DNA of 64,000 bases from contig NZ_BOOQ01000046.1 of NCBI RefSeq assembly GCF_016863315.1, positions 1 to 64,000 of the forward strand, given 5' to 3'. This document shows positions 35,756-42,430 of this stretch, piece by piece. A model generated the notes under the pieces. The model was not told the DNA's origin, searched no databases, and saw only the letters and a list, made by a program, of their open reading frames with translations. The number at the start of each line of letters is the position of its first letter. Position 1 is the stretch's first letter. The DNA is from Planotetraspora silvatica. Its GTDB lineage: Bacteria; Actinomycetota; Actinomycetes; Streptosporangiales; Streptosporangiaceae. The position numbers were made by a program, and so were the translations under genes.

Positions 35756-36601
35756 GTGGTTTCAGATTCGAACGAGCTCGCGTGCAGCCTGCGCCTCTGG
35801 CGCGGCCGCGTGTCACCCGCCGAGGTAGGCCTTCCGGAGGGCGGCCGGCGCCGCGTGCTCGGCCTGCGCCGGCAGGAGGTCGCCCAGCTTTCCGGGTTGT
35901 CGGTCGAATACCTCGCCCGCCTGGAGCAGGGCCGCGCGATCCACCCGTCGCCGTCGGTGCTCATGTCGCTCGCCCGGGTGCTGCGGCTTTCTGACCAGGA
36001 GCGCGCACATCTCTTCCGCGTCGCGGATCAGGCCGAGCCGGCCCACGGGAGCATCAAGCGCCACATCACGCCGAGCGTGCAGCGGATCCTGGACCGCCTG
36101 ACCGACCTGCCCGTCCAGGTCGTCGACGCCTCGTGGCAGTGCATCACGTCCAACCCGCTCGCGTATGCCCTGGCCGGCGACACGTCGGCACTGCCGCTGC
36201 GTGAGCGGAACCTCGCCTGGACCGTCTTCACCTGCGCTCCAACACGCTATATCCGCACCGAGGCCGAGGAGCGCCTGCTCCGCCTGGAACTGGTCTCCGA
36301 TCTGCGCGAGGCTCGAAGCCGCTATCCGAAGGACAAGCTGCTCGGCGACCTCATCGACGATCTGCTGGAAGTCAGCACAGACTTCGCCGACCTGTGGGAG
36401 CAGCGCCTGGCCGCCCCCCAGCCCGGCTTGAGCAGTCGGACGTTCCTGCACCCCGAGATCGGACCGATCACAATGGACAGCGACTTCCTCACTGTACGTG
36501 ACACCGACCTCCGGTTGATCGTCTACACCAGCGCGCAGGACAGCGAGGCGGCCGGGCAGCTCGACCTGCTGGCGACGATCGGCCTGCAGCCGTTTAGCTG
36601 A
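35756..36601 (+). CDS. MmyB-like XRE-family transcriptional regulator
   Basis: 281 residues: an N-terminal XRE helix-turn-helix (LRRQEVAQLSGLSVEYLARL then EQGRAIHPS) and a C-terminal PAS-like MmyB domain (VQVVDASWQCITSNPLAYAL, RNLAWTVFT). This family in actinomycetes typically represses a divergent single oxidoreductase or SnoaL-like gene and responds to a small ligand in the MmyB pocket. Here the divergent SnoaL-like gene at 35579 fits. A decayed relative lies at 20370-20845. Confidence 0.9.
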   Translation: MVSDSNELACSLRLWRGRVSPAEVGLPEGGRRRVLGLRRQEVAQLSGLSVEYLARLEQGRAIHPSPSVLMSLARVLRLSDQERAHLFRVADQAEPAHGSIKRHITPSVQRILDRLTDLPVQVVDASWQCITSNPLAYALAGDTSALPLRERNLAWTVFTCAPTRYIRTEAEERLLRLELVSDLREARSRYPKDKLLGDLIDDLLEVSTDFADLWEQRLAAPQPGLSSRTFLHPEIGPITMDSDFLTVRDTDLRLIVYTSAQDSEAAGQLDLLATIGLQPFS

Positions 36602-36722
36602 CCGGGTTGGGTGATCAGGTTCTGTCGTCTGCGCTGCGCGAGGTTCAGTGTTCGTTCGTAACAAGGATGATCAGCACCTGGCCTGGATCCCTCGGCAACG
36701 CCAGATCGTCCCCCTGATGACC

Positions 36723-36768
36723 AGTGAGCCTTTTCCATCGTGATCATGCTGGTCACGGTGATGGGAGT
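36723..36768 (-). repeat. 46-bp perfect inverted repeat, right arm
   Basis: Exact reverse complement of 35027-35072. Directly beyond it, GGTAAGACAGCA (about 36799) and TGCTGTCTTACC (about 36849) make a second, 12-base inverted repeat in front of the transposase remnant. Confidence 0.85.
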
Positions 36769-36829
36769 GAGGCCAGATACGGGGTGAGGGGAGGCCCCGG
36801 TAAGACAGCAGTCGACCAAGATCCGATGC

Positions 36830-37040
36830 CCCAACCGGGAGCCTCGTTGCTGTCTTACCCTGCCGCGATTCCGCTGTCGAACTGTACCCTCGTCCGCCTG
36901 GCTGATCTCATCCGCGCTCAGCGTGCCCAACGTCGATGCCGGTGGCGGCGCCTGGATCCGGGCCGGCAAGCGCTGCTGGTGCTGGCCCACCTGCGCAACG
37001 GGGATACCTACGCCCGCCTGGCCGCTGGGTTCGGCATCGG
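36830..37040 (+). mobile_element. transposase N-terminal remnant (IS5-like)
   Basis: The frame reads YPAAIPLSNCTLVRLADLIR, then WRRLDPGRQALLVLAHLRNG and DTYARLAAGFGIG. That is the helix-turn-helix N-terminus of a common actinobacterial IS5-like transposase. The DDE domain is absent, since the following sequence belongs to the next gene. A 12-base inverted repeat just upstream may be part of the old element end. Confidence 0.75.
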
Positions 37041-37158
37041 CGGCCAACCGCTCCTGCCAGAGTTCGCTCTTCTCGCGCGCACCGGAAGACGCTACGCTGA
37101 TCATGATGAATACCTCCTCCATCAGATTGGGGGCCCCGTTCACGCAAGGTGAGTGCTG

Positions 37159-38442
37159 ATGCCGCACTCAACCCCGAACGAGGATTCCCGCCTAACCCTC
37201 TGGCTGCGCGTGCGTGAGTTCGCCGTGCCGCCCCCCATGATCGAGTCTGCGACCGCCCGCCGTGCTGCCGGAGACTGGGCAGCAGCGTGCGCAGCAGCAC
37301 ACGTAGACGTCGATCTCAACCTGCGCCACATAGCGCGCCTCCACGGCCAGGAACTGGCCACCCACCTTCGCAGCGACCTCCGTCACCTGGCGCCTGACCT
37401 GCTGCGCTGGCACATGCCAAGAATCGCTCCCAACGGCCTGATACGTCCGGGCCTGACCCTCTCGCTGGCCCGGTACCGCGAGAGGGATAACACGGTCCAC
37501 CTTGTGGCCAGGACTCCGCCGGCCTGGGCGGATGCCGGTCAGCGGATCAGCCTGGCGCTCTGGGACAGTTCCCGGTCGGGACCGCATCCGCACCCCCATC
37601 CGAATCGACGCTTCCGCCTCGATCTGCATCGCCACTTGTGGGATGCACGCAGGGCCGGTGAGCTGCGTACACGTTCCGAAACGCCGCCGCACGCACGGGG
37701 CTGGGCCGTCGATCGGTGGCTGGCCGAGGCCCGGTTGCTGCTCTGTGCCGAGGGGCAGGACGGGGGTACGGTCGCCGTCCGGGTCGGCGGGCGGCGTCAG
37801 GTGATCCTCGATGTTGACGCGTCCCGGGTCGGCAACGAAGGACCCGCGCCGCCGCCGATCTTGCCTGATGCGGCGACCTGGGTGCTGCCCGACCTGGCGT
37901 TGCTGCGTGCCGGGCTAATCGAGGCCGACAGGCTGCACCCGCTCGTTGCAACGGCTCTTCTACCCGGCCATTCGCCGGACGCCAAGCCGCACGGCCACCA
38001 GAGCGAGAACGAGCCGCGAATGGTCGAGTGTCGCGGCGCCCAGCACAGGATCGCGCTCGTGAACGGCATGCTGGTCGCACTGGATCACGACGCGACCGAG
38101 ATCCGGCGCGAGAAACTGCTGGCCGAGTTGACCGGCACCCCGTTGCCCTGTTTGCGGCTAATCGAGGAGGCCCACCGCTCCCCGGAGTGCCTCCTCGATG
38201 TCCGCACGCGACTGGAGCACGGCGACGCCGCCGGTGCTCAGGCCACCGTCGACGGTCTCCTCGGACCTGGTGCGCGGCTGCCCGAGGGCGCGCTGCGCGA
38301 CGTGCTGGAGAAGGCCGCGCGGCGGCGGATCGACCACGGGCTGTTCCGTACCGGGCTCGGGTCGGTCCCGGGACCGACCGAGCGACCGGACCGCCGCTCC
38401 CGTAAGGGCCGGGCACGCCCGCGCCACGCCACATTCCGCTGA
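37159..38442 (+). CDS. unrecognised protein of the MoxR/VWA cassette
   Basis: 427 residues, no signal peptide and no transmembrane helix. Basic and His-rich stretches occur (PHPHPHPNRRF near residue 143). The C-terminal third has a clean strand-strand-helix look (HRIALVNGMLVALDHDATEI then LTGTPLPCLRLIEEAHRSPE) and ends in a very basic tail. I do not recognise any domain. It is 80 bases upstream of a MoxR-type ATPase, which overlaps a VWA-metallopeptidase gene, so the three probably work together. This protein could be the substrate adaptor or effector of the ATPase. The ATG at 37159 has AAGGTG upstream. Confidence 0.8.
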   Translation: MPHSTPNEDSRLTLWLRVREFAVPPPMIESATARRAAGDWAAACAAAHVDVDLNLRHIARLHGQELATHLRSDLRHLAPDLLRWHMPRIAPNGLIRPGLTLSLARYRERDNTVHLVARTPPAWADAGQRISLALWDSSRSGPHPHPHPNRRFRLDLHRHLWDARRAGELRTRSETPPHARGWAVDRWLAEARLLLCAEGQDGGTVAVRVGGRRQVILDVDASRVGNEGPAPPPILPDAATWVLPDLALLRAGLIEADRLHPLVATALLPGHSPDAKPHGHQSENEPRMVECRGAQHRIALVNGMLVALDHDATEIRREKLLAELTGTPLPCLRLIEEAHRSPECLLDVRTRLEHGDAAGAQATVDGLLGPGARLPEGALRDVLEKAARRRIDHGLFRTGLGSVPGPTERPDRRSRKGRARPRHATFR

Positions 38443-38524
38443 CGCTGTACTTCTTCCTAGACCTCCAAGGTGATTCATCATCCTTTCGTCTGTTCACGCC
38501 TCGCGCCTTGAAGTCGCCGGCGAT

Positions 38525-39688
38525 TTGCTGACCCTGCTCCGCGACACCACCACGGAGCCACGTACCGACACGCAGTTGGAGGCCCTGACCCTGGCCGTGG
38601 CGGCCGACCTGCCCGTCCTGCTGTGGGGGGAGCCGGGGATCGGCAAGACCGCGGCGCTGCAGCAACTCTCTGAGGCACTCAACCTGCCGCTCACGACGGT
38701 AATCGCCAGCGTGCACGAGCCGTCCGACTTCTCCGGCCTTCCGGTGGTCGGTGACGACCCCGCCGCGCAGGGCGTCCCGATGGCGCCGCCGGATTGGGCC
38801 GTACGTCTGGCTCGCGCGGGCCGGGGGCTGCTCTTCCTAGACGAGCTGTCCACGGCACCGCCCGCCGTACAGGCCGCCCTGCTCCGCCTGGTTCTGGAAC
38901 GGCGGGTCGGGGCCCTGCGGCTCCCGGCAGGTGTCCGGATCGTGGCGGCCGCCAACCCGCGTTCCTCTGCCGCTGATGGCTGGGAGCTGAGCCCGCCGCT
39001 CGCGAACCGGTTCGTCCACCTGCAATGGCGTCACGATCACGATGTCGTCGTACGCGGCCTCGGCGGGACCTGGCCGCGCGCGAGCCTGCCGTGGCTCGAC
39101 CCGGAGCGGCTGTCCGAGGCGGTGACGTTCGCCCGGCGTGCGGTGTGCGGGCTCCTCACCGCCCGCCCCGAGCTCGTGCACCGGCTGCCGAACAATGAGG
39201 CACACCGGGGTGGCCCGTGGCCCTCACCTCGCAGCTGGGAGATGGCGTTGTGCCTGACCGCCTTCGCCGCCGCGGCCGCCGCGTCCAAGGACGTGCTGTC
39301 CATGCTGGTCAGGGGCGCGGTGGGAGACGGGCCTGGGCTGGAGCTGCTTGCCGCCATGGACCGGATGGACCTTCCCGACCCCGAGGCGCTGCTGGCCGAC
39401 CCGGCGACGGCCGAGCTGCCCCAGCGGGGTGACCTGCGCCAGGCCGTACTTGACGGTGTGGTCGCGGCCGTGCGGAAGCGGCCGGATAAGGGCCGGTGGG
39501 ACGCAGCATGGGCGCTGCTGGCGCGAGCGTTGGAGACCGGTGCGCCGGACCTGGTGGTCGTGCCCGCTTCCACGCTCGCCGCGCTGCGCCGCGCGGACTG
39601 GGAGGTCCCGGCCACGATCGAGAGGCTTGCCGGGGTGGTCTCCTTGAGCAGGAAGGCGGATGCGATCGCGGCGCGGGTGACGGGCTGA
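38525..39688 (+). CDS. MoxR-family AAA+ ATPase
   Basis: 387 residues. Walker A GEPGIGKT (35-42), the pore-side HEPSDFSGLP segment, Walker B GLLFLDEL (101-108) and sensor-1 VAAANPR are all present; a C-terminal helical lid domain follows. The family couples ATP hydrolysis to remodelling of VWA-domain partners. Only a TTG at 38525 fits as a start; the frame is open upstream to 38474 without ATG or GTG, while AAGGTG lies near 38466, so the true start is uncertain. It overlaps the next gene by one base (TGATG). Confidence 0.9.
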   Translation: MLTLLRDTTTEPRTDTQLEALTLAVAADLPVLLWGEPGIGKTAALQQLSEALNLPLTTVIASVHEPSDFSGLPVVGDDPAAQGVPMAPPDWAVRLARAGRGLLFLDELSTAPPAVQAALLRLVLERRVGALRLPAGVRIVAAANPRSSAADGWELSPPLANRFVHLQWRHDHDVVVRGLGGTWPRASLPWLDPERLSEAVTFARRAVCGLLTARPELVHRLPNNEAHRGGPWPSPRSWEMALCLTAFAAAAAASKDVLSMLVRGAVGDGPGLELLAAMDRMDLPDPEALLADPATAELPQRGDLRQAVLDGVVAAVRKRPDKGRWDAAWALLARALETGAPDLVVVPASTLAALRRADWEVPATIERLAGVVSLSRKADAIAARVTG

Positions 39689-40896
39689 TGGACTTTGAGA
39701 AGCTCTTCACCGCCCGGCTGTACGCCGCGCGGGCCCGGCCCTATCTGGCGACGGCGCTGTTCGCGCTGCATCCGGTGGAGTCGCGGTTAGTGCCCACGAT
39801 GGCCGTGGATCGGCACTGGCGTTGTTACATCTCACCGGCATTCGTCGTGCGGACCCCCGTTGAGGAGCTGGCGAGCGTGTGGGTGCACGAGGTCTCCCAC
39901 CTGCTGCGCGACCATCACGGCCGCAGCGACCGGGTCGCCCGGCAGCGGGAGCTGACGGGACGGGGAGAGCGGCTGCGGATGAACATCGCCGCTGACCTCG
40001 AGATCAACGACGACGTGTACGGTGACGGGCTGGCCTGGCCTGGTGGCGCCGTCCAACCGAAGATGCTGGGGCTGCACGAAGGCGAGCTCATGGAGGACTA
40101 TCTGCGCCAGTTCCGGCTGGGCCCGTACACGCAGGATCTGATCTGGCTGGACTGCGGCAGCGGCGCCGACGGACTCGAGCGGGAGTGGGATCTCGGACTG
40201 GAGGGCGCGAACGGGCTCAGCGACCACGAGCGGGAGGCGGTCCGGTTCCGGGTGGCGCAGGGCATTAACGCCCATCCGGGGAATGTGCCGAAGGGATGGC
40301 GGCGGTGGGCGGAGGAGGCATTCCACCCGCCGCAGCCGTGGCGGGAACTGCTCGGCACAGCCATCCGCTCAGCGGTGTCAGGACCCGGCGTGGGCGAGGA
40401 CTACACCTATGGCAGGCCGCCGCGGCGCTCGGCCAGCCTGACGGGCGTCATCCTGCCGAGCCTGCGGCGCAGGCCGCCGCGGATCAGCGTGGTCATCGAC
40501 ACCTCCGCGTCGGTCAGCGACGCCGAACTGGGAAGCGCGTTGCTGGAGGTCGCCGCGATCGTCCGCGCCGTGGGCGGCCGGCGCGACCTGGTCAGCGTTC
40601 TGTCCTGCGACGCGGCCGCCCGGGTCGCGCAACAGCTGTGCCGGGCCGAGGGGATGACGCTGGTGGGCGGTGGCGGTACGGACCTGCGTGCGGGCATCGC
40701 CAAGGCGCTGCGGGCGAGCCCGCGGCCGGACGTCATCGTGGTCCTGACCGACGGACAGACCCCGTGGCCGCAGGAACGGCCGACGGCCCGCATGGTGGTG
40801 GGGCTGTTTTCCCGGACCAGGCGGTCGTACGAGAGCGATCCCGACTACGTGCCGGACATCCCGCCCTCATGGGCACGGGTGGTCGACATCGGCTAG
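39688..40896 (+). CDS. DUF2201-type putative metallopeptidase with VWA domain
   Basis: 402 residues. The N-terminal half has a zinc-peptidase motif HEVSH at 67-71 followed by NIAADLEINDD, as in DUF2201 proteins. The C-terminal half is a VWA domain with an intact metal-ion-dependent adhesion site: DTSAS (271-275), Thr331 in GGTDL and Asp355 in LTDGQTPW. Such proteins are known as partners of MoxR ATPases. The gene overlaps the MoxR stop codon, which strongly suggests a complex. A peptidase under AAA+ control is the simplest reading, but catalysis is not proven. Confidence 0.9.
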   Translation: MDFEKLFTARLYAARARPYLATALFALHPVESRLVPTMAVDRHWRCYISPAFVVRTPVEELASVWVHEVSHLLRDHHGRSDRVARQRELTGRGERLRMNIAADLEINDDVYGDGLAWPGGAVQPKMLGLHEGELMEDYLRQFRLGPYTQDLIWLDCGSGADGLEREWDLGLEGANGLSDHEREAVRFRVAQGINAHPGNVPKGWRRWAEEAFHPPQPWRELLGTAIRSAVSGPGVGEDYTYGRPPRRSASLTGVILPSLRRRPPRISVVIDTSASVSDAELGSALLEVAAIVRAVGGRRDLVSVLSCDAAARVAQQLCRAEGMTLVGGGGTDLRAGIAKALRASPRPDVIVVLTDGQTPWPQERPTARMVVGLFSRTRRSYESDPDYVPDIPPSWARVVDIG

Positions 40897-40937
40897 TCAA
40901 TACCTCGTTGACACTCCTGATCAGGCCTTCGGGTATA

Positions 40938-40979
40938 GACACCGAAAGGTCACTGGTTCGATCTCAGTATCGCCCACCA
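40938..40979 (+). repeat. degenerate tRNA-Val-like 3' end, copy 1
   Basis: The run CACTGGTTCGATCTCAGT then ATCGCCCACCA matches the T-arm, acceptor and CCA end of an actinomycete tRNA-Val. The anticodon stem CTTCG/CGAA is still visible, but the loop is expanded and the T-stem has a mismatch. About 20 further bases of 3' flank are shared with copy 2. It is a pseudo-tRNA or an integration-site scar, not a working tRNA. Confidence 0.7.
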
Positions 40980-41185
40980 TGTTGTCGCAGTTCAGAGGCC
41001 GTTCCCTCTCGGATGGCAGCGGCCTTTCGCATGCTCTGGGTGACTACCGTTTCAGGTGCGGGCGTGTTCTTTGTGCGGATGCATGATCGTGCTCGTGCAT
41101 ACCGACAGTCTCGCTGATGCTGATGACCAATTCGGCGTTGTGGATATCCGGAGGCCGCCGTGGGAGGCGGCGGTAGCCTGATGGC

Positions 41186-41476
41186 ATGACTGCTGAGCCG
41201 CTGCATCACGCCGAGGATGACCCGGCGGAGATCTTGCGTGCGCTGCCGGAGCGGTGGCATGAGCAGTTCCTGAGCGAGTATCACAGTGCCTTGGACGCGG
41301 CCCACGAGGTCTGGCGGTTCCAGCAACTGCGGGAGCTTCTGCGCGTGTGGCGGCTGCACGCGGCTGCGGTCTCCGATCCCGATTTCGACACGGCGGAGCG
41401 GGCGGTTCGTGAGGGTCGGCGCGAGGAGTTCGTGTCGATGGAGGATGCCTTCCCTGGATGGGCCGACCGTCGATGA
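41186..41476 (+). CDS. DUF6247-type antitoxin-like protein
   Basis: 96 residues, mostly helical, with the family core DDPAEILRALPERWHEQFL and YHSALDAAHEVWRFQQLREL. Proteins of this type (DUF6247) lie directly upstream of a RelE-like toxin gene in actinomycetes and are presumed antitoxins. Here the stop overlaps the start of the next gene (ATGA). The partner carries a premature stop, so the module may be inactive. Confidence 0.75.
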   Translation: MTAEPLHHAEDDPAEILRALPERWHEQFLSEYHSALDAAHEVWRFQQLRELLRVWRLHAAAVSDPDFDTAERAVREGRREEFVSMEDAFPGWADRR

Positions 41477-41718
41477 GTTACCGCGTGGATCTCCACGTGG
41501 CGGCGCTGTCCCAGATGAAGGGCCTTCCCGATGAAGCGCTCGACGCGTTGATCTCCCGGACGGTGGATCTCGTCGAGAAGCCCTGGGACGCGTGGGTCCT
41601 GTACAAGGATGATCCCGATTTCCGTATGACGACCTTCGGTGATTTCGGCGTTCTGTAATTCAAGGTCGATGAGGCCGACGAGCTGATCACCATCTTCAAT
41701 GTGACGTGGGCGGGCTGA
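41473..41718 (+). pseudogene. RelE-like toxin gene interrupted by TAA
   Basis: The frame begins MSYRVDLHVAALSQMKGLPD and continues WVLYKDDPDFRMTTFGDFGV, like a small RelE/ParE-type toxin. At 41656-41658 a TAA stops it. The same frame then goes on with FKVDEADELITIFNVTWAG to a natural TGA at 41718. One base change (a Tyr codon to TAA fits) therefore removes the last 20 residues, which include the final strand. The short product of 61 residues is probably inactive. Confidence 0.72.
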
Positions 41719-41719
41719 C

Positions 41720-41746
41720 GGAGGGATCGAGCAACGCTATCCCTCC
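41720..41746. terminator. stem-loop after the toxin-antitoxin pair
   Basis: GGAGGGAT (41720-41727) and ATCCCTCC (41739-41746) form a perfect 8-base stem with an 11-base loop, starting two bases after the toxin frame ends. A likely factor-independent terminator of the pair. Confidence 0.65.
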
Positions 41747-41860
41747 CGGCCCACTCTCGATATGAGCGACTATTTGAGTGACAACGGCGACGGACGTCCT
41801 CAGATGGAGGCGGACGCCCGTGGATCGTAATCGCAGGTCAGGTCGGCTTTCGACCCACGT

Positions 41861-41925
41861 GGGCGGTCTCACTCAGGTGTTTCACACCGAAGCGGCCACT
41901 GGTTCGATCCCAGTATCGCCCACCA
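41861..41925 (+). repeat. degenerate tRNA-Val-like gene, copy 2
   Basis: The 3' half is near perfect: TTCACAC anticodon loop (CAC), CACTGGTTCGATCCCAGT T-arm and ATCGCCCACCA acceptor end. A GGGCGGT at 41861-41867 can pair with ATCGCCC over all seven positions. Only about 30 bases lie between the acceptor and T-arm instead of about 43, so the D-arm region is deleted. Followed by the same flank (CGCAGTTCAGAGG) as copy 1. Confidence 0.7.
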
Positions 41926-42126
41926 CGTTTCCGCAGTTCAGAGGTCAGATACCGCGCCAGCGGGGTCTGGCCTTTCGTCGTCTGGACCGTGGTTGGTCCG
42001 TGGGACCAGACGTCACCTGCCGCCCTGGACCGTCACTGAGCCGCTCACTCCCGGCACCCGGTTGCGTGGGGACGGCGGACCACCGTGTTCGATCGGAACG
42101 TCGACGCGCGCGGAAAGGTCCGGGTA

Positions 42127-42430
42127 TCAGGTTGATCGGCCTGCCTTCGCACGTTGTGGGCGTAGCGGACCGACGTATTCGGTCGACCGGGGAGATTGGG
42201 TACACACGGACGACAGCATCTCAAGAATCTCGCCGAGGAATTGACGGCTGGTGCGTCCACAGCAATCGCACGGGTGGGGCTCGAACGTCGCGGGGTTACG
42301 GGAAGTTCGTGCCCAGCCGACGAGGGCTTCTATGGTCGCTCCCGGCCACAGCCCGGATCGCGCGTAGTTGACCGCACTCGTCAGTTCGATCTCGAGGATC
42401 TCTTGCTGAGCGTCGCCATGAAGTGCGGCC
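42127..42430 (-). pseudogene. unassigned protein remnant with CDCC motif
   Basis: The minus strand encodes QQEILEIELTSAVNYARSG, WPGATIEALVGWARTS and PHPCDCCGRTSRQFLGEI, a natural-looking helical protein with a Cys cluster. No start codon exists before the TetR gene's end interrupts the frame. I do not recognise the family. It is probably the C-terminal part of a lost gene. Confidence 0.4.

Follow-up and report, generated by a model that had tools for sequence, protein, structure and literature searches.

The window analysed here, 64,000 nucleotides of Planotetraspora silvatica (contig NZ_BOOQ01000046.1, positions 1 to 64,000), carries on its forward strand a cassette of three genes: gene 1 (37159–38442; 427 residues), a proposed sensor/adaptor, a gene for a MoxR AAA+ ATPase (38480–39688), and gene 3 (39688–40896; 402 residues), whose product joins a putative metallopeptidase domain (DUF2201_N) to a VWA domain (DUF2201). 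The sequence itself argues for linkage of these genes, for intact ATPase, metal-ion-dependent adhesion site (MIDAS) and HExxH motifs, for a conserved leader start and a covarying hairpin ahead of gene 1, and for transfer of the whole as a block, and we hypothesize that the cassette acts as a small ATP-driven protease switch.

The MoxR protein matches PF07728 AAA_5 (42 bits), and every position of its Walker A (GEPGIGKT), Walker B (LLFLDEL), AAANPR and LANRF motifs is kept in at least 73 of 74 sequences, in agreement with the full ATPase motifs claimed by the initial annotation of this DNA. Gene 3 matches PF13203 (90.4 bits) and PF09967 (53.4 bits), each over the gathering cut-off; the HExxH motif that had been placed at residues 67–71 reads HEVSH, and the VWA domain joined to it holds the expected DxSxS, Thr and Asp (D271/S273/S275, T331 and D355). 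The catalytic motifs of the cassette are conserved across the 74 sequences, with His67, Glu68, His71, Asp103 and Glu105 of gene 3 invariant (74/74), and the VWA domain is the C-terminal end of gene 3, with no effector domain after it. The one-base overlap described for the last two genes was also found, gene 3 beginning at 39688, the last base of MoxR. In the window genome, gene 1 and gene 3 are each matched once, and MoxR has three further matches (E 1.7e-5 or weaker). The MoxR coordinates given above begin at the position of the relatives' ATG, which is ATC in the window; the first ATG/GTG/TTG start is a TTG at 38525, giving 387 residues (38525–39688). A conserved AAGGTGATT(C/A)ATC precedes the MoxR start, followed by ATG in loci L018–L020 (Nonomuraea jabiensis, Nonomuraea spiralis and Sphaerisporangium rufum) and by ATC in the window (38480). 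Given the ATG at this position in all three relatives, the TTG is probably not the ancestral start, and MoxR may begin at 38480, at the TTG or be poorly initiated.

As the initial annotation had stated, gene 1 codes for a protein with no recognisable domain: no Pfam family scores above its cut-off (the top one, PF09250, reaches 17.2 bits, cut-off 22.8), and no NCBIfam, PADLOC or PHROG match was found at the E-values used. A Prim-Pol identity was rejected, the match being below cut-off and present in one of 79 members. By homology, gene 1 belongs as a short form to a family whose longer proteins carry ankyrin repeats at their C-terminal end; in the 79 short-form members no Pfam match to ankyrin repeats was found, and these repeats are present in the long member tested.

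To which genes gene 1 is linked was assessed by scanning its alignment against a collection of species genomes, which gave at least 595 pattern matches and at least 339 relatives, the hosts of the cassette being filamentous actinomycetes, Streptomyces lavendulae CCM 3239 and S. avidinii among them. The best 80 of the at least 339 relatives were analysed, a sample that leans toward close relatives of the short-form gene 1; 78 of the 80 loci have a complete gene-1 frame, and 75 of these 78 have at least 3 kb downstream. MoxR and gene 3 follow gene 1 in the same order in all 75 testable loci, and the three genes are one unit. It had been proposed that gene 1 belongs to the cassette and that its occurrence mostly without the MoxR/VWA pair in other genomes would speak against this; that result is absent for the short form, because 75/75 loci carry both genes. 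Of the 23 loci from the long (ankyrin) branch, three (L131, L140 and L143) carry gene-1 homologues but lack MoxR/VWA. MoxR and gene 3 overlap in 73/73 loci tested (67 by 4 nt and 6 by 1 nt), L044 and L045 being excluded from the 73-locus counts, as their gene 3 start was not located. In the 76 loci that span 11 kb or more, every other gene cluster is confined to at most 15 loci, and no fourth protein gene is conserved beside the cassette; clusters of 5 to 15 loci exist around the unit, and partly reflect close kinship. Over 74 sequences, gene 1 has a mean pairwise identity of 0.67, compared with 0.84 for MoxR and 0.79 for gene 3. Gene 1 keeps a single architecture, with no swapped domain, and this constancy speaks against its being a variable effector.

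Upstream of gene 1 we noticed a leader ORF (open reading frame) of 17 codons (37106–37159, with an in-frame ATG also at 37103), whose stop TGA overlaps the gene 1 ATG, and a −10-like box, TACGCT (37093–37098), 7 nt ahead of the second leader ATG. We compared 81 leaders, namely those of the window, of the 78 loci and of two loci cut inside the cassette. The leader ORF has 17–18 codons, with ATG at −56 or −53, and runs in one frame to a TGA overlapping the gene 1 ATG; the start is kept in 81/81 leaders, compared with 59.0 (standard deviation 2.5, maximum 67) in 2000 column shuffles. A TAnnnT box lies 7 nt (64 leaders) or 8 nt (14 leaders) before the first in-frame ATG in 78 of the 81, and this spacing holds whether that ATG is at −56 or at −53; the window is one of the three exceptions, fitting only via its second ATG. 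Because the start codon is kept and the distance from box to start is fixed, this leader frame is favoured, and because the box ends 7–8 nt before the leader ATG, the layout is that of a leaderless transcript, with the leader AUG as the apparent 5′ end of the mRNA. An overlapping frame, ending in ...QIGGPVRAR, had seemed coding by its silent changes at many variable third positions, and was rejected: it has stops in 12/79 and, where it runs through the −10-like box, offers no start codon. Part of the scarcity of stops in this frame is probably accounted for by RNA pairing. In 61 family genomes, a model of the leader (R1) has four strong matches, each preceding a short-form gene 1, and a fifth at 27 bits that is taken for chance. 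No leader element was found in the long-form loci examined, allowing up to 8 substitutions.

The end of the leader (37134–37144) and codons 5–9 of gene 1 (37173–37183) can form the two arms of an RNA helix; single folds also show the ribosome-binding site of gene 1 covered by an inner hairpin. Compared with controls in which random synonymous codons stand in for the first codons of gene 1, the fold is more stable on average in 81/81 sequences (mean z −1.94; z below −1 in 76), and the probability of the ribosome site being unpaired is 0.32, vs 0.49 in these controls. On the alignment, the 11-pair outer helix, which was supplied by hand from single folds, so that the count is biased in its favour, has 82% of cells paired, 24 double-change cells (5.7 when shuffled) and a covariation score of 0.151 (vs 0.105), each of the three values being above all six slid versions. 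A search of Rfam over 36600–42300 gave no match.

Taking these features together, we consider that the cassette is, with a probability of about one half, a self-contained ternary ATP-driven protease switch in which gene 1 would be a dedicated sensor/adaptor whose supply is gated by translation, MoxR a remodelling ring powered by ATP, and gene 3 the VWA partner of MoxR with a zincin-like metallopeptidase domain. The MIDAS site of the VWA domain would grip gene 1, either free or carrying its trigger, which may be phage, translation stress or development, MoxR would remodel the complex using ATP, and the protease would then cut gene 1 or a target delivered by it. The transcript would start at the leader AUG, and the hairpin formed with the first codons of gene 1 would mask its ribosome-binding site until ribosomes translating the leader open it and resume initiation at the overlapping UGAUG. 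What this scheme infers is an active protease, contact between the proteins, sensing, a leaderless transcript and the direction of the gating. In this form the cassette is a widespread, compact MoxR/VWA module that brings a third component and an RNA control of its own, the leader ORF, the −10-like box and the covarying hairpin before gene 1 being new here.

Several observations weigh against this interpretation. In the leader, the absence of stops is within chance (0 observed, 1.6 expected) and the second overlapping frame is also stop-poor (12 vs 28.2 in shuffles), so that either frame may be the one that matters; in addition, the leader peptide itself shows no strong conservation. In the helix, one slid version matches the 7 pairs that carry a double change, pair 47/84 is unpaired in 65/81 sequences and pair 41/90 in 23/81, and the window forms 8 of the 11 pairs (3 mismatched, by hand count), with a folding z of −1.09. 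RNAalifold alone yields 10 pairs with little covariation energy, a shortfall that seems to be partly due to the inner hairpin shifting register between sequences. The correlation of the protein distance matrices of the three genes (r 0.77, 0.71 and 0.63), which itself counts in favour of the cassette, leaves shared ancestry in, as do the column shuffles. Profile searches against solved structures gave no credible relative for gene 1 or gene 3, and in the window strain the ATG of MoxR is replaced by ATC.

The long-form relatives of gene 1 were followed in 23 loci picked from strong matches, including three genus mates, to whose copies the window cassette is 38–40% (gene 1), 59% (MoxR) and 51% (gene 3) identical. 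MoxR and DUF2201 are present in 20 of the 23, and the order of the last three genes is the same as in the window cassette; tRNA-like genes, short-chain dehydrogenase/reductase (SDR) and leucine-rich repeat (LRR) genes and ankyrin repeats belong to the long-form operons and are all missing from the window cassette. Upstream of those 20, SDR and LRR occur in 13, LRR only in 5 (one cut by a contig end) and neither in 2, and the ankyrin gene-1 homologue is present in 1 to 7 copies per locus. At the site of the genus mates' long operon, the window genome (L176, contig 21) keeps a tRNA-like gene, SDR and LRR, and lacks ankyrin gene 1, MoxR and DUF2201, its short cassette being elsewhere in the genome.

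In 19 of the 23 long-form loci, ARAGORN identified 1–6 tRNA-like genes beside or between the long-form genes (the loci without one are L133, L134, L136, which is cut, and L143). Whereas the D and T arms hardly vary, the anticodon arm shows 34 distinct segments in 40 sequences, which were picked by D- and T-arm motifs, so that the constancy is partly by construction; 33 tRNA-like genes were found by ARAGORN independently of these motifs. Since Rfam scores 18 of the tRNA-like genes (8 loci) as tRNA, they may be real tRNAs. The tRNA-like loci are L014–L016, L128–L132, L135, L137–L142, L144–L147, L176, L177 and L179. A tRNA-Ser is expected to have a long variable arm, and some of these genes are called tRNA-Ser at 75 nt, without such an arm. 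Of 130 family genomes, 19 contain the D-arm pattern; in 14 of them, as judged by eye, it adjoins an ankyrin gene-1 homologue, and in four further genomes looked at, it lies beside SDR-LRR genes in three, the window genome being one of these, and beside an LRR fragment in one. In L131 (8004–13711), three tandem ankyrin gene-1 homologues each start with a tRNA-like gene (Cys, aca), and MoxR and DUF2201 are absent from this stretch.

By homology the module is tied to operons with variable-anticodon tRNA-like genes. A speculative and rather doubtful extension is that the gene-1 family, together with MoxR and the metallopeptidase-VWA protein, makes up a new machine for the surveillance of translation or of tRNAs, in which the tRNA-like RNAs of the long form could be baits or sensors of anticodon damage, and from which the short form would have dropped them, coupling the switch to translation via leader and hairpin. 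This proposal rests on association: long-form loci bring tRNA-like genes, and the short form has a leader coupled to translation. Should that connection with translation prove real, bacteria could convert a translation or tRNA defect into ATP-driven proteolysis. The open-access papers searched (subscription papers and bioRxiv being outside the scope) included none that deals with this gene 1, with DUF2201 and MoxR together, with ankyrin repeats linked to MoxR in such a context, or with tRNA-like genes of this kind accompanying MoxR or vWA.

A by-eye selection of 20 loci away from gene 1 has MoxR standing beside DUF2201, which in L162 is recognised by position only. The other neighbours of the pair, also assigned by eye, include beta-lactamase-like and helical-repeat-like proteins or pairs of uncharacterised proteins. 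A helical-repeat-like protein of about 250 residues accompanies MoxR-DUF2201 in L166, L168, L170 and L171, with a beta-lactamase-like protein too in L168, L170 and L171; partners with a CG..GxHxVRWE-like start occur in L153, L154, L156 and L172. Since the pair recurs with other third genes, MoxR and DUF2201 appear to be a core with exchangeable partners, as was proposed for other MoxR-vWA systems in excerpts of PMC7159879 and PMC8195603.

A close parallel is found in jumbo phages, for which excerpts of PMC7824862 describe a MoxR and vWA pair as chaperone and co-chaperone with a fused metallopeptidase, with virion assembly as the proposed role. PHROG_1297 and PHROG_1314 match the window MoxR and gene 3 (E 4.3e-49 and 2.8e-36, respectively), and in both settings, as far as those excerpts go, MoxR adjoins the vWA gene and the metallopeptidase is N-terminal to the vWA domain. 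However, gene 1 is unmatched in 50,697 phage records, of which gene 3 matches 20, and the cassette loci are bacterial contigs and plasmids. PHROG_1314 is labelled HNH endonuclease, though matching gene 3 fits the DUF2201 metallopeptidase-VWA models, and the label may be a misannotation. The MoxR-vWA ternary systems described in the excerpts of PMC7159879 and PMC8195603 (VMAP, iSTAND, FtsH, beta-propeller, iSTAND2 and TERNS3) likewise combine MoxR with AAA+ motifs, vWA with MIDAS and a system-specific third gene, and metallopeptidase effectors are called rare there; in the cassette, by contrast, the peptidase is fused N-terminally to vWA and no effector domain stands behind vWA. None of the described third-component types was found in gene 1 of the window and 79 members, within the bounds of the Pfam models, the bpMoxR model scores 18.4 bits on the window MoxR (under its cut-off of 27), and PADLOC gave no match for gene 1 or gene 3 and weak AAA+ matches only for MoxR. 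With the erm/cat translation-attenuation leaders, in which a short leader ORF stands beside a hairpin covering the ribosome site of the next gene, the cassette shares both elements, and it differs by its leaderless layout, its stop overlapping the next start and having no known inducer.

The cassette lies in a block, comprising also the upstream control region (37055–40899), that is 93% identical in DNA to N. jabiensis (L018), with unrelated flanks, and whose ends are nearly identical in N. spiralis (L019) and S. rufum (L020). The dS (synonymous divergence) between the window and N. jabiensis is 0.10–0.20 for the three cassette genes, whereas a fragment of rpoB, the single yardstick gene, gives 0.38 and 0.43 to two copies (L149 vs L150 and L152); dN/dS (nonsynonymous to synonymous ratio) against L018–L020 is 0.14–0.40. 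The short cassette is absent from the other four genomes of the genus, bar one gene-1 fragment. Because of the sharp-edged block, the absence in four genus mates and the dS below that of rpoB, transfer of the cassette as a block, as the initial annotation had suggested, is supported at the level of sequence comparison. The fragment, in genus mate L005 (1501–1659), is a 54-residue piece of gene 1, 91% identical and lodged in another ORF, apparently a relic of a former cassette. L018 and L019 have another common block a few kilobases away.

This history bears on the possibility, which we consider less likely than the switch, that the cassette is an anti-phage or conflict system like the MoxR-vWA ternary ones, in which gene 1 would sense an invader, MoxR-VWA would set the threshold and the metallopeptidase would harm the infected cell. 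The three-part logic is that of the systems in the excerpts of PMC7159879 and PMC8195603, the hosts are filamentous, and the cassette moves between genera, is patchy within the genus and has its gene 1 on 9 of 72,556 plasmids; however, the PADLOC search was silent on gene 1 and gene 3, no known third component or swapped effector domain is present, and a quick tree of the joined proteins, in which the window adjoins two Nonomuraea species, largely follows families. In the CbbQ/CbbO and NorQ/NorD activases, MoxR works with a VWA partner acting on a client, and by analogy MoxR-VWA might here fold, activate or metal-load gene 1, with the metallopeptidase processing it. Such a maturation system would agree with the gene order client-MoxR-VWA, with the strong conservation of gene 1 and its invariant polar residues, and with the same pair adjoining other possible clients. 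We regard it as unlikely, given that the cassette has no recognised client enzyme and an extra metallopeptidase domain, that gene 1 has no enzyme motif or Pfam family, and that its relatives end in ankyrin repeats in up to seven tandem copies, resembling recognition proteins. Excerpts of PMC7159879 name CoxD-CoxE as an origin.

It is very improbable that the cassette of the window strain is a recent arrival that is poorly expressed or decaying: the change of the MoxR start from ATG to ATC, the weaker hairpin (3 of 11 pairs mismatched) and the gene 1 fragment in a genus mate would fit such a state, but all frames are open, the motifs are intact and dN/dS is well below 1. The protease switch with gene 1 as sensor/adaptor is the reading we retain.

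The surroundings of the block were examined for the two further marks of transfer that had been claimed, a remnant of an insertion sequence on the left and a tRNA-Val-like scar on the right. The former was recovered as an ORF (36724–37152) with a match to PF13613 HTH_Tnp_4 (E 7.5e-9, residues 75–105), the final part of which runs into the cassette leader. The latter is present as two copies of a tRNA-Val 3′-half (40948–40998 and 41894–41944), an intact tRNA-Val(CAC) being found elsewhere in the window genome; since both copies lie outside the Nonomuraea-shared block, which ends at 40899, the scar is not supported as a sign of this transfer, and its role as attachment site of the cassette was rejected. 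ARAGORN called a tRNA in 6 of 40 short-form loci scanned, at least two of these inside cassette genes; across short-form loci, 17 tRNAs were counted in 1.59 Mb, three falling inside the coordinates of a cassette. The two tRNA-Val scars of the window enclose a stretch (41186–41659) with a DUF6247 gene, followed by a short ORF that, by eye, resembles a cut RelE/ParE-type protein.

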